Source of the DNA: Pyrococcus furiosus DSM 3638
GTDB taxonomy: Archaea > Methanobacteriota_B > Thermococci > Thermococcales > Thermococcaceae
NCBI RefSeq assembly: GCF_000007305.1
Contig: NC_003413.1
Span: 801,318-865,317, forward strand
DNA: 64,000 nucleotides
Direction of reading: 5' to 3'
The notes beneath the pieces were generated by a model. That model was not told the origin of the DNA. It saw only the letters and a list, made by a program, of their open reading frames with translations, and did not search any database. Below are positions 5,239 through 62,436 of the stretch, piece after piece; positions within the stretch are counted from its first letter, which is position 1, and each line of letters opens with the position of its first letter. The position numbers were made by a program, and so were the translations under genes.

Positions 5239-7195
<1,957 letters not shown>

Positions 7196-50688: not shown

Positions 50689-50859
50689 ATGAGTGGGATT
50701 GAGGAGAGAGTTGGTATCGTGAATTTATATTCACTGATGGAATGGGAGTACCCTCTAATTCCACGTATAGGAGATCACAAATGTCCTAGTAGCCTTCCAC
50801 TTATCGAGTGCAAGTTTGTGAATGTTAGAAGATGGGTTTCTAAGCATTACAGGAATTAA
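50689..50859 (+). CDS. short open frame of unknown status
   Basis: An ATG-initiated frame of 56 codons (MSGIEERVGIVNLYSLMEWE start) ends four bases into the convergent ABC ATPase gene. Composition is protein-like, with two Cys and several aromatic residues, but no ribosome binding site is clear and no family is recognised. It may be the remnant of a longer gene. Confidence 0.25.
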   Translation: MSGIEERVGIVNLYSLMEWEYPLIPRIGDHKCPSSLPLIECKFVNVRRWVSKHYRN

Positions 50860-51563
50860 GCGTGTTCATCCTGCTCTTCATTAATATCCACATCTACTTT
50901 AAAGAGACTTTTAACGTCTTCCTGGACTTCCTGTACATCGCCTTCGAGCACTATTTCTCCGTCAGCAATAACCAAGATCCAATCAGCGAGGAAAAGCAGA
51001 GGCTCCCAAATGTGACTGATTATCACGAAATTCGACTCATTATTCTGTTTAATTTTTCTCATAATTTTGATAAATCCAGCGATGTTCTTAAAGTCAAGGT
51101 TGGCTAGAGGTTCATCTAGGAATATGAGTTTTGGTTCTCCTATAAAAGCCTGTGCCACACTTAACTTCTTTAGCATTCCAGAGGAGTATCCTCCTATCCT
51201 CTTATCAAGAAAATCTATTTTAAATAACTTTGCTACCCTTTCAACTTCTTCCTCTCCGTATCCCTTAGCAGAGGCAAAGAACATCAACCATTCTCTACCC
51301 GTAATCAGCTTAGGAAAAGAGGGAGGATCATAGGAGGCACCGATATACTTTTTTATCTTTTTGCTTTTCCATGGGTTCTCTCCAAGAACCCTTATTTTTC
51401 CCTTGGTGGGTCTATATATTCCTGTAGCGAGCTTTAGAAAGGTAGACTTTCCCCCTCCATTAGGGCCTAGGATAAGAGTAGTTCCCTCGGGAATCTCTGT
51501 GGTTATACCCTTGAGGGCATATATGTTTCCAAAGCGTTTTACAAGGTTTTTAGCGACTATCAT
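50856..51563 (-). CDS. ABC transporter ATP-binding protein
   Basis: This 235-residue ATPase has Walker A LGPNGGGKSTFLKL, the signature YSSGMLKKLSVA, Walker B LIFLDEPLANLD and the H-loop ISHIW. It is the last gene of a four- or five-gene operon with overlaps of 4-14 bases, encoding a permease, two membrane-anchored proteins and a secreted protein. This looks like a dedicated exporter, maturation or immunity system for the secreted product of the first gene. Confidence 0.9.
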   Translation of the reverse strand: MIVAKNLVKRFGNIYALKGITTEIPEGTTLILGPNGGGKSTFLKLATGIYRPTKGKIRVLGENPWKSKKIKKYIGASYDPPSFPKLITGREWLMFFASAKGYGEEEVERVAKLFKIDFLDKRIGGYSSGMLKKLSVAQAFIGEPKLIFLDEPLANLDFKNIAGFIKIMRKIKQNNESNFVIISHIWEPLLFLADWILVIADGEIVLEGDVQEVQEDVKSLFKVDVDINEEQDEHA

Positions 51564-52014
51564 TTTTCCACCCCCTCCAGAGATAGAGTATGAGACCGAA
51601 TGCCGATACTATTCCTACAAAGTATGTAGCATTTTGCACGCTCCTTGTTGGATGATTCTCCTTGAACCTTAAAATACAAGAAATAGAACCATTACCAAAG
51701 TAAGCCATATAGTAAGACCCTTCATGCGGAATTATGAGTTCTTCTAAAAGCTGTCCTGAAATTTTTGCGGAATAAATTGGCTCCCCACTAAATCTATCAA
51801 ATATTTTTAGGTTTCCAAGCCCCCCACGACATTCAACTTCAGCCAGCGATTGTGTTGGTGTTGAGAACGTTAGAAAATATCCCTTTCCACGTTCTGTTGG
51901 GGGTAATGAGTAGGGTCCTGAAGAATGCAGCTCGGCTGAGTATCCGTAATAAAGTAGCATCATGACAGAGGGAAGAAGTAAGAAATATGTTAGAAGTCCA
52001 ATAAAAATCCTCAT
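51550..52014 (-). CDS. small bitopic membrane protein of the ABC operon
   Basis: This 154-residue protein has an N-terminal helix (FIGLLTYFLLLPSVMMLLYY), an outside domain of about 95 residues and a C-terminal helix (GIVSAFGLILYLW). It is encoded between the ABC permease and ATPase with overlaps on both sides, so it is probably an accessory subunit. No family recognised. Confidence 0.7.
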   Translation of the reverse strand: MRIFIGLLTYFLLLPSVMMLLYYGYSAELHSSGPYSLPPTERGKGYFLTFSTPTQSLAEVECRGGLGNLKIFDRFSGEPIYSAKISGQLLEELIIPHEGSYYMAYFGNGSISCILRFKENHPTRSVQNATYFVGIVSAFGLILYLWRGWKNDSR

Positions 52015-52766
52015 TTGACATCCCTCCTATCTATTAGAAGTCCTGAGAGGGATAGAAGAATAGCAGGTACAACCATTCCAGAAATTAATAGCTTCTGATC
52101 AAATGGTGAGACACTTCCATAGTATGAAAGTATGAAGAGAGCTGGGGGAATATTTGCAATATTGAGAAAGATTGGAATAAAGATAGAAAGAAAACTCACT
52201 ATGAAGCCAACAAATACATTTGGAGAAAGAAGAGACAAAAGAGTAATAATCGAAAGAGAGTAAAGGAGTGTATAGATGGCCATGATTAAGCGGAACTTTA
52301 TCATATCGGAGAATAAAATAGAGGGGAGATAGTCAATTATAGTAAAGTTTGAAAGAACTATAACTGAGAAGAACGGCAAAAACACTAAAAATGCAGAGAA
52401 AATGATAATTGTGAAAAATTTTACAAGGAAGATCTCAAGCTTTGAGTAGGGGAGAGAGTATAGGGAATTTGCATATCCAGAATCCCTATCTAGTCTGAAT
52501 GTTATAACTCCAAGAAGTATGAGAAATAACAGGGAGCTCATCCAGAAGCTGAAGTTTCTAAGAACGCCCTCGATTACTAAGGTAGTTGGACTATTCCCAG
52601 GGTTATCCATTAGCGTTGAGGTACCAATAGAAATAGTTAGAGAGGACATTACAATTAAGTACGAGCGATGAAGTATTGAAGTATTTAGCAACATACCCGC
52701 GAGCAATATGCCTACCTTGAGTGGATCATTTAATTCCCACATAAAAAGAGTTTTAATTCTACTCAT
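52011..52766 (-). CDS. ABC-2 type permease
   Basis: This 251-residue membrane protein has about six helices and the arrangement of ABC-2 exporters, including LDRDSGYANSLYSLPYSKLE between helices two and three. It overlaps the neighbouring genes by four bases each way. It would form the channel for the ATPase at 50856-51563. Confidence 0.8.
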   Translation of the reverse strand: MSRIKTLFMWELNDPLKVGILLAGMLLNTSILHRSYLIVMSSLTISIGTSTLMDNPGNSPTTLVIEGVLRNFSFWMSSLLFLILLGVITFRLDRDSGYANSLYSLPYSKLEIFLVKFFTIIIFSAFLVFLPFFSVIVLSNFTIIDYLPSILFSDMIKFRLIMAIYTLLYSLSIITLLSLLSPNVFVGFIVSFLSIFIPIFLNIANIPPALFILSYYGSVSPFDQKLLISGMVVPAILLSLSGLLIDRRDVK

Positions 52767-53820: not shown

Positions 53821-54247
53821 CTAATTCCTAACTCCAATAATTGCATGGGCATGCCAAAACCGCCCTAAACCAGCACCATATGAATCTGTCCATGCAGCAT
53901 TAATATCCTGGCCTGGAAGATAACCCATAAAGACTGGTACTATAGCCCCGGGGATATCCCCTCCATCGTGTGTGCTTGACATATTTCAATTCTATTTTAG
54001 TCTTATTGGAACAGGGGGCTTTTTTTAATTCCCCGCTGACATAAGCATATACTCCAGCTATTGGTGTATTAGTGACAGGGCCATAAAGAGCATCAGTGTC
54101 ATAATCAGAGTCGAAGTATACACAATAGGGAGGCAAAGTCGCCTGTATTGCATTATCTGTGGATTCTTCTGTAGTCTTTGCTGTTACGAAGGCCGTTGCT
54201 AATGTCATCAACACTAAAACGAGAACAAAAATACTTCTATTATTCAT
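53821..54247 (-). pseudogene. secreted small protein gene broken at a CRISPR repeat
   Basis: The first frame (from 54247) encodes a signal peptide (SIFVLVLVLMTLATAFVTA) and a mature part (YCVYFDSDYDTDALYGPV, then GELKKAP) and stays open to 53900. At 53983-54012 it crosses a CRISPR repeat. Just after that repeat a different frame gives a more natural C-terminus, SSTHDGGDIPGAIVPVF, GYLPGQDINAAWTDSYGAG and GRFWHAHAIIGVRN, stopping at 53821, 14 bases before the next gene. An ATG at 53982 could start this part alone. A run of nine G's lies four bases before the N-terminal ATG. The protein heads the ABC operon. Confidence 0.65.
53983..54012 (-). CRISPR. solitary CRISPR repeat of P. furiosus type
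   Basis: Read on the minus strand, the 30 bases start GTTCCAATAAGACTAAAA and end ATAGAATTGAAA plus T. This matches the P. furiosus CRISPR repeat as I remember it at 29 of 30 positions, including the ATTGAAA that becomes the crRNA 5' tag; only the final G is T. No second repeat occurs within reach on either side, so it is not an array. It lies within the coding region of a secreted-protein gene and marks its frame break. Confidence 0.8.
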
Positions 54248-54569
54248 TTGCCCCCCCCCATTTATTTGTGAAGGGGCAATTATAATAATTCTTCAAAGTT
54301 TTATAAACTTTTCTAATACTGATTTGGATTTTGTTTAATGTTTAGACATTTGAATCTATAAATTTTTGACAATGAGTGAAAATAATATTGTATTGAGAAA
54401 GATGTCAAAATTATACCAAGCTCGTTAGCGAGTACATTATGTTGTTATATTTCGTATTTAGCCTAAGTTGAACATTCTCATAAGGAATTATTGCCCCTAG
54501 TTTCTATTTCCTCAACTCCTATGGAATAGCACAGCATATAGTATCTTTTGGCGAAAATGTTACTAATCC
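54248..54569. other. intergenic, promoter of the ABC operon
   Basis: AT-rich spacer. On the minus strand AAAGTTTATAAAAC (54297-54310) is the probable TATA box of the secreted-peptide gene. The rest, up to the M24 remnant, shows no reading frame or structure that I recognise. Confidence 0.5.
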
Positions 54570-55061
54570 CACCATGAACCAGGCGAGAGGAAGATCAGAA
54601 GGGAAACATCCTTATCCTGGGTTACGGTGTGAGATGGAAAGGTTACTGCTCGGATATAACGAGAACCATAGGCTTAGGGAACTCGATGAAAGGTTAGTTA
54701 AGATCTACGAGGTATTTAATGTGCCCAGGAAAGTGCTTTTAAAGCAGTCAGGGAGGGAATAAAAGCGAAAGATGTTGGCTCCAGGGCGAGGGAAGTTATC
54801 TCCAAGGCCGGCTACGGTGAATAATTCATTCACAGAGCTGGTCATGGCTTCGGTCTCGACGTTCATGAAGAGCCGTACATAGGCTCAGATGGCGAAGTTA
54901 TCCTTAGAGATGGGATGACATTCACGATAGAACCTGGAATTTACGTTCCAGGCTTGGGAGGAGTGAGGATAGAGGATGACGTTGTAGTTGATGGGGGAAA
55001 GGGAAGAAGGCTAACTAAAGCTGAAAGAGAGTTAATAGTTCTTGTTTTCCCTTTTCTTTAA
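54570..55061 (+). pseudogene. M24 peptidase (Xaa-Pro dipeptidase-like), C-terminal remnant
   Basis: Catalytic-domain sequence of the prolidase family is spread over frames: ILGYGVRWKGYCSDITRTIG, ELDERLVKIYEV, then REVISKAGYGE, an in-frame [23 protein letters not shown] and [20 protein letters not shown] with DDVVVDGG and [11 protein letters not shown]. Metal ligands are still recognisable ([20 protein letters not shown]). The N-terminal domain is missing and there are at least two shifts and one stop, so it is dead. Confidence 0.8.
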
Positions 55062-62311: not shown

Positions 62312-62436
62312 TTCAATTTTCGGGTTTAAAAAGGCTTTTTTATCTCCCTCACCAACTTTAGACTGGGAAACAAAAATGTTCACTAACGAAAATTTGAGGA
62401 GTATTGGTCAATTATGCTCATTGGGAGGTGGTTTGT

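Follow-up and report, generated by a model that had tools for sequence, protein, structure and literature searches.

A single CRISPR repeat lies inside the first gene of an ABC operon in a 64-kb stretch of Pyrococcus furiosus DNA (the window, meaning the whole stretch analysed), with native codons on both sides, a net gain of 10 nt and a broken reading frame. The tentatively favoured explanation, which may well be correct, is a short patch, made by templated repair or gene conversion, whose source was the junction between a CRISPR leader and its first repeat. Around 42 nt would have been copied from such a junction, most likely in one of the cell's own arrays, replacing approximately 32 nt of a gene that is absent from most relatives. 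The features of such a patch are seen together at the site: the repeat is present, host bases are replaced, and native sequence continues on either side. The likely outcome is an inactivated gene that has no CRISPR function.

To our knowledge, the route by which a leader-repeat unit reaches a new genomic place is not settled, and P. furiosus is an organism with working spacer-acquisition assays. A repeat with an apparent leader edge, within a gene whose orthologues retain the empty site, is a candidate for the first step towards a new array, and the scar is a hint that copying can carry CRISPR DNA to new sites. An inert repeat here would still suggest that repair which breaks genes can draw on CRISPR repeats as donors, and that a lone repeat need not be what is left of a collapsed array.

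The lone repeat and its host gene

The repeat (window 53983–54012, minus strand) reads GTTCCAATAAGACTAAAATAGAATTGAAAT, and agrees at 29 of 30 positions with the repeat named in the initial annotation. At three mismatches or fewer it is the only match in the 64 kb, and each of 100 shuffles gave none, bearing out the annotation's statements that no other repeat is nearby and that a random match is not credible. Within the surrounding 1.2 kb the next best ungapped score is 19/30, leaving one repeat where a CRISPR array has at least two. The 29-nt core is identical in five of 18 leader-first repeats from related genomes, while the first repeats of genome G018 differ from it at one or two of the 29 bases. 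The mismatch at base 30 carries little weight, because four of the 18 also carry a base other than G there (T, T, A and C). This comparison used 18 leaders and first repeats from 20 stretches, L144 and L150 being dropped as having no leader before the first repeat; L140–L142 come from one genome and are alike.

The P. furiosus repeat given in a review (PMC3890593) is a variant with other middle bases, matched by the lone repeat at 27 of 30 positions (counted by eye). The exact 30-nt repeat was not found as an unbroken word in the open-licence literature, and that paper prints its repeat with a space. Among the matches listed, no title or abstract opening in the open-licence literature reported a lone repeat in P. 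furiosus.

Table 1. Features of the lone-repeat locus and its operon, in window coordinates.
Feature	Position	Strand	Basis
Lone CRISPR repeat, 29-nt conserved core	53984..54012	- (same strand as gene)	29/29 against first repeats L138, L143, L145, L147 and L149
Repeat position 30, T instead of G	53983..53983	-	Comparison with 18 leader-first repeats
Leader-end-like 14-mer, AAAAAAAGCCCCCT	54013..54026	-	Directly 5' of repeat; 13/14 against leader ends L135 and L137 (both G018)
Truncated secreted-protein ORF, 115 aa	53900..54247	-	Frame stops aligning with orthologues past the repeat
Out-of-frame remainder, conserved C-terminus (MSSTHDGGDIPG...WHAHA)	53821..53982	-	Begins at ATG at repeat edge
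Second operon gene, 347 aa	52763..53806	-	56% identity to same-place gene in L081; no Pfam family at E <= 0.01
ABC-2-type membrane protein of operon	52011..52766	-	PF12730, E=1.5e-5, 25.5 bits, just under the cut-off of 27
Small operon gene	51550..52014	-	No Pfam family found
Operon ABC ATPase	50856..51563	-	PF00005, E=8.2e-20

The interrupted gene is the first of the operon and has, by eye, a signal-peptide-like start, in line with its earlier description as a signal-peptide gene heading an ABC operon. Its C-terminal half is intact in another frame, where WHAHA stands a few residues before the end, and the homologous C-terminus was indeed located there, continuing from the repeat edge as had been claimed. 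The gene is rare, with a match in five of 94 Thermococcales genomes, all five being free of internal stops. One of these orthologues (L082:1498–1869) is otherwise near-identical to L081 and is without 16 middle residues, an in-frame difference of 48 nt.

In alignment, the window gene is 10 nt longer than all five orthologues, the extra length falling between a conserved C codon and a conserved D-x-G. As the net gain relative to five of five orthologues is only 10 nt, native codons must have been replaced. The insertion into an uninterrupted gene proposed by the initial annotation thus stands as regards the uninterrupted orthologues, whereas its clean 30-base form gives way to a replacement. 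The repeat is present in none of the five, which favours an event over the alternative raised by the annotation, that orthologues carry the same 30 bases in frame. Taken together, the comparison supports the view that CRISPR DNA entered the gene and broke its frame.

Much of what borders the repeat is native. TGTTC is found in L081 and L082, as is the ATG directly after the repeat's place, and both loci also have CCCTGTTC. A conserved M-P is changed to K-A in the window, exactly at the position of the leader match, and upstream of the leader-like stretch of ~14 nt the window aligns with the orthologues' gene rather than with a full leader. With DNA identity to the orthologues at ~70% in the conserved part, both edges of the patch are uncertain by several bases, and some of T-ATGTC may derive from a spacer. 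A target duplication of TATGTCA was considered and rejected, as the orthologues show its upstream copy to be native.

The wider neighbourhood holds further features. A run of nine G on the minus strand (window 54251–54259) lies just 5' of the start codon; seven of the nine are invariant across the window and all five orthologues, making this an unusual ribosome-binding region. The aminoacyl-tRNA-synthetase-like gene near the operon in the window (leuS, by eye) is also close to it in L091 and L092. The second operon gene had no relatives in protein scans of one genome-contig collection or of viral contigs, and relatives are present in another genome collection. The operon abuts the remnant of a broken Xaa-Pro peptidase-like gene (window 54516–55061), for which a search of plasmids yielded a single, weak match to an Xaa-Pro peptidase. 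At the peptidase place, G015 has an open frame of 359 codons, and the gene beside it encodes a relative of the DUF4855 protein seen in the window. The similarity of G015 to the window ends at 54516, which makes arrival of the operon region by insertion a possibility. Elsewhere in the window, the protein at 6468–7154 is identical to PDB 3rjz_A, a P. furiosus protein, at 229 of 229 residues, and that at 62404–63540 matches the sulfhydrogenase 1 beta subunit family above the cut-off.

Leader-like sequence upstream of the repeat

The 14-mer directly upstream of the repeat, and the edge that it forms, are absent from the initial annotation and are newly observed. A DNA search with the locus recovered related CRISPR loci, with some matches extending ~12 nt upstream of the repeat. 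Leaders of G018 end, for example, in CAAAAAAGCCCCCT immediately before the first repeat, sharing 13 of 14 bases with the window. Scored with a matrix of all leaders (14 distinct ends from 18 leaders), the 14-mer ranks third of 127,974 14-mers, and of the 689 14-mers with a CCCT end it is one of two that reach its score; this matrix leans towards the window, because the leaders were fetched after the upstream-running matches had been seen. Omitting the G018 leaders places it at rank 13 of 127,974, with four of 689 CCCT-enders as high. Nine leaders picked regardless of the window give rank 23 of 127,974 (9/689), and the four G016 leaders alone give rank 623 of 127,974 (56/689). The best-matching leaders are all from G018, and the strength of the match depends on the leader set. 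As it weakens in the control sets, to rank 623 with G016 alone, identity of the upstream edge with a CRISPR leader end is likely rather than proven.

The native gene provides a second measure of this resemblance. Native orthologous sites match at 8–9 of the 14 positions. For each of two native-like peptides, FKMPPC and LKMPPC, 200,000 codings were simulated, and none exceeded 11/14. Under chance drift of the peptide to LKKAPC, 13 or more of the 14 positions would match in 1.4% of simulated codings. Among the 512 14-mers that precede GTTC, that of the window alone reaches 13 matches. By the all-leader matrix, the native site in L081 and L082 falls in the top 0.4% of 14-mers, and those of the other three orthologues in the top 0.7%, 2.5% and 7.5%. 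Some leader likeness therefore pre-existed, since the L081/L082 site is both within the top 0.4% and followed by GTTC. Leader sequences of P. furiosus itself were not found in the open-licence literature.

Lone repeats in related genomes

Lone repeats were surveyed in 13 genomes for which every place was listed (8 + 1 + 3 + 1), giving 12 repeats that have no neighbour on the same contig. The survey is not a random sample, because 8 + 3 of these genomes had been selected on unusual strand counts or low totals. No lone repeat is among the 85 places listed in full for G016 or the 48 for G018. Nine of the 12 were examined (L085–L090 and L163–L165); the other three belong to G059 (two) and G084 (one, at a contig edge).

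Six of the nine look like collapsed or decayed arrays. A second, damaged repeat is visible by eye near L085, L087 and L163, weakly so in L085 and L163; L086 (G024) has trailer sequence in common with the main array; L088 (G037) has 327 nt of leader (82%) in common with its main array; and L165 occupies a place where relatives, including G080 and G087, carry arrays. At L086 (1706–1738 and 1974–2029) the lone repeat has 26–27 nt of trailer, and a second, 33-nt trailer copy sits ~240 nt away. At L088 (1675–2029) the lone repeat stands behind a leader copy missing approximately the last 60 nt of the main-array leader.

For the others, L089 reaches a second repeat where its contig stops. L164 (2000–2029, G056) is an intergenic lone repeat with two mismatches, between genes that are hypF-like and hypE-like by eye; no second repeat was seen at this locus. 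L090 (1894–2496, G085) is a second in-gene lone repeat, in a transporter-like gene (MFS, by eye). Relative to G086 and G081, 310 nt of this gene are replaced in G085 by 109 nt, with flanks that are 94% and 92% identical on one side and 97% and 94% on the other. By BLAST ends the 109-nt patch starts with the repeat, beside native DNA reading CTTTCAATAG, and native CTTTCAAT adjoins it; the multiple alignment places this edge a few bases off. The rest of the patch is in part 82–87% similar to sequence in G086, in G032 and elsewhere in G085, and the locus looks like patchwork repair because of this resemblance to other places.

Origin of the repeat and comparison with known systems

The most likely course of events at the P. 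furiosus site would begin with a break or stalled fork in the gene, repaired by templated synthesis that used short (homeologous) homology. The K-M-P-P-C-S codons of the native gene, already similar to a leader end followed by GTTC, could have allowed a broken end to pair with a leader-repeat junction. Copying would then have run through the repeat, before the gene was rejoined at the native ATG or near the repeat end. The implied donor is an array in which this repeat variant follows a leader end resembling AAAAAAGCCCCCT; this donor, the direction of copying and the repair pathway are what we infer. Of the origins suggested by the initial annotation, recombination with a repeat comes closest to this mechanism, except that the apparent donor is a leader-first-repeat junction and not any repeat. 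Seven arrays are reported for P. furiosus (PMC3890593), and microhomology-mediated end joining under enhanced self-targeting is described for Haloferax volcanii (PMC7521656).

The nearest rival to a patch from the leader junction is a patch of the repeat alone, by templated repair from any in-array repeat, the 14-mer then reflecting native drift and A-rich likeness. Judged by the G016 leaders alone, the 14-mer indeed does not stand out among those ending in CCCT (56 of 689), and CCCTGTTC is native in two orthologues; the 13/14 match to G018 leader ends, ranks of 13 and 23 in the two less biased matrices, and a M-P to K-A change falling exactly at the leader match make this origin unlikely. That coding sequence came to resemble the repeat by chance draws on the native GTTC of L081 and L082, which supplies the first bases, and is for practical purposes refuted by the empty shuffles and by a 29/29 core coinciding with the frame break. 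Spacer integration by Cas1-Cas2 is expected to leave a spacer-length insert and a duplicated target; the ectopic integration proposed by the initial annotation does not fit the net +10 nt relative to every orthologue, and 1 kb of sequence holds no duplicated stretch of that size. A looser accident involving these proteins can be envisaged, in which they made an off-target attack on the junction-like native site, or a DNA end from the gene was joined to a leader-repeat junction, with repair then leaving a leader end and repeat beside native DNA. Their involvement is possible because the patch resembles the junction at which Cas1-Cas2 works; in addition, the 3' edge of the repeat abuts native sequence both here and (by BLAST ends) in G085, and two of five native sites rank within the top 0.4% of 14-mers for leader likeness. 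This is nevertheless unlikely given a gain of 10 nt with neither spacer nor duplicated target, a G085 patch whose remainder resembles other places, and an upstream part of the G085 locus that did not match the L159 leader.

An in-gene array that shrank to one repeat through repeat-repeat recombination, also suggested by the initial annotation, would parallel the six collapsed cases described above. It is disfavoured, and we consider it improbable, as native codons flank the repeat, the gain is only 10 nt, leader-like sequence ends after ~14 nt, and nothing nearby scores above 19/30 as a second repeat. A role for the repeat after its arrival was also weighed. According to PMC3890593, P. furiosus Cas6 cuts within repeats and crRNAs keep an 8-nt repeat-derived 5' handle, so the predicted RNA would carry an AUG starting 8 nt from its end. 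A Cas6 site in the operon mRNA, as the annotation proposed, is possible on the sequence, and could serve as a control point or yield a CreA-like, crRNA-like RNA: the repeat is in sense orientation, its last eight bases are the usual handle except for the final base, and an ATG follows directly. Such recruitment is very unlikely, since no other site in the window matches the putative 37-nt guide at nine or more 5' bases, and the functional ectopic repeats described in PMC9458426 are degenerated. Folding of the site's RNA was no better than that of shuffles. It is quite improbable, too, that a gene site which by chance was junction-like, converted into a true junction, now constitutes a nascent CRISPR locus to which Cas1-Cas2 can add spacers, although this, if true, would be how arrays multiply within a genome.

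Among known systems, CreTA likewise has one or two CRISPR repeats outside an array. CreA repeats are degenerated, those of haloarchaea lie between cas genes, and they guide Cascade to a toxin promoter (PMC9458426), whereas the P. furiosus repeat has an intact 29/29 core, interrupts a coding gene just downstream of leader-end-like DNA, and has no second guide target within the window. Collapsed or decayed arrays share with it a single repeat without spacers; the six such cases seen here are intergenic or near genes and keep a leader, a trailer, a damaged second repeat or the place of an array in relatives, while the P. furiosus repeat has none of these traces beyond its ~14 leader-like nucleotides.

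In neo-CRISPR off-target integration, Cas1-Cas2 inserts a spacer and duplicates the host site. The likeness is that a site outside arrays that mimics a leader-repeat junction could be acted on by CRISPR machinery; the difference is that here the copied-in DNA is CRISPR sequence itself, at the cost of host bases. Microhomology-mediated repair can leave templated (filler) insertions, a class of product that resembles the P. furiosus site in that a short piece from elsewhere fills a small deletion. Microhomology joining has been described in archaea (PMC7521656). What sets this case apart from the filler class is the filler, a CRISPR repeat, apparently together with the edge of its leader.
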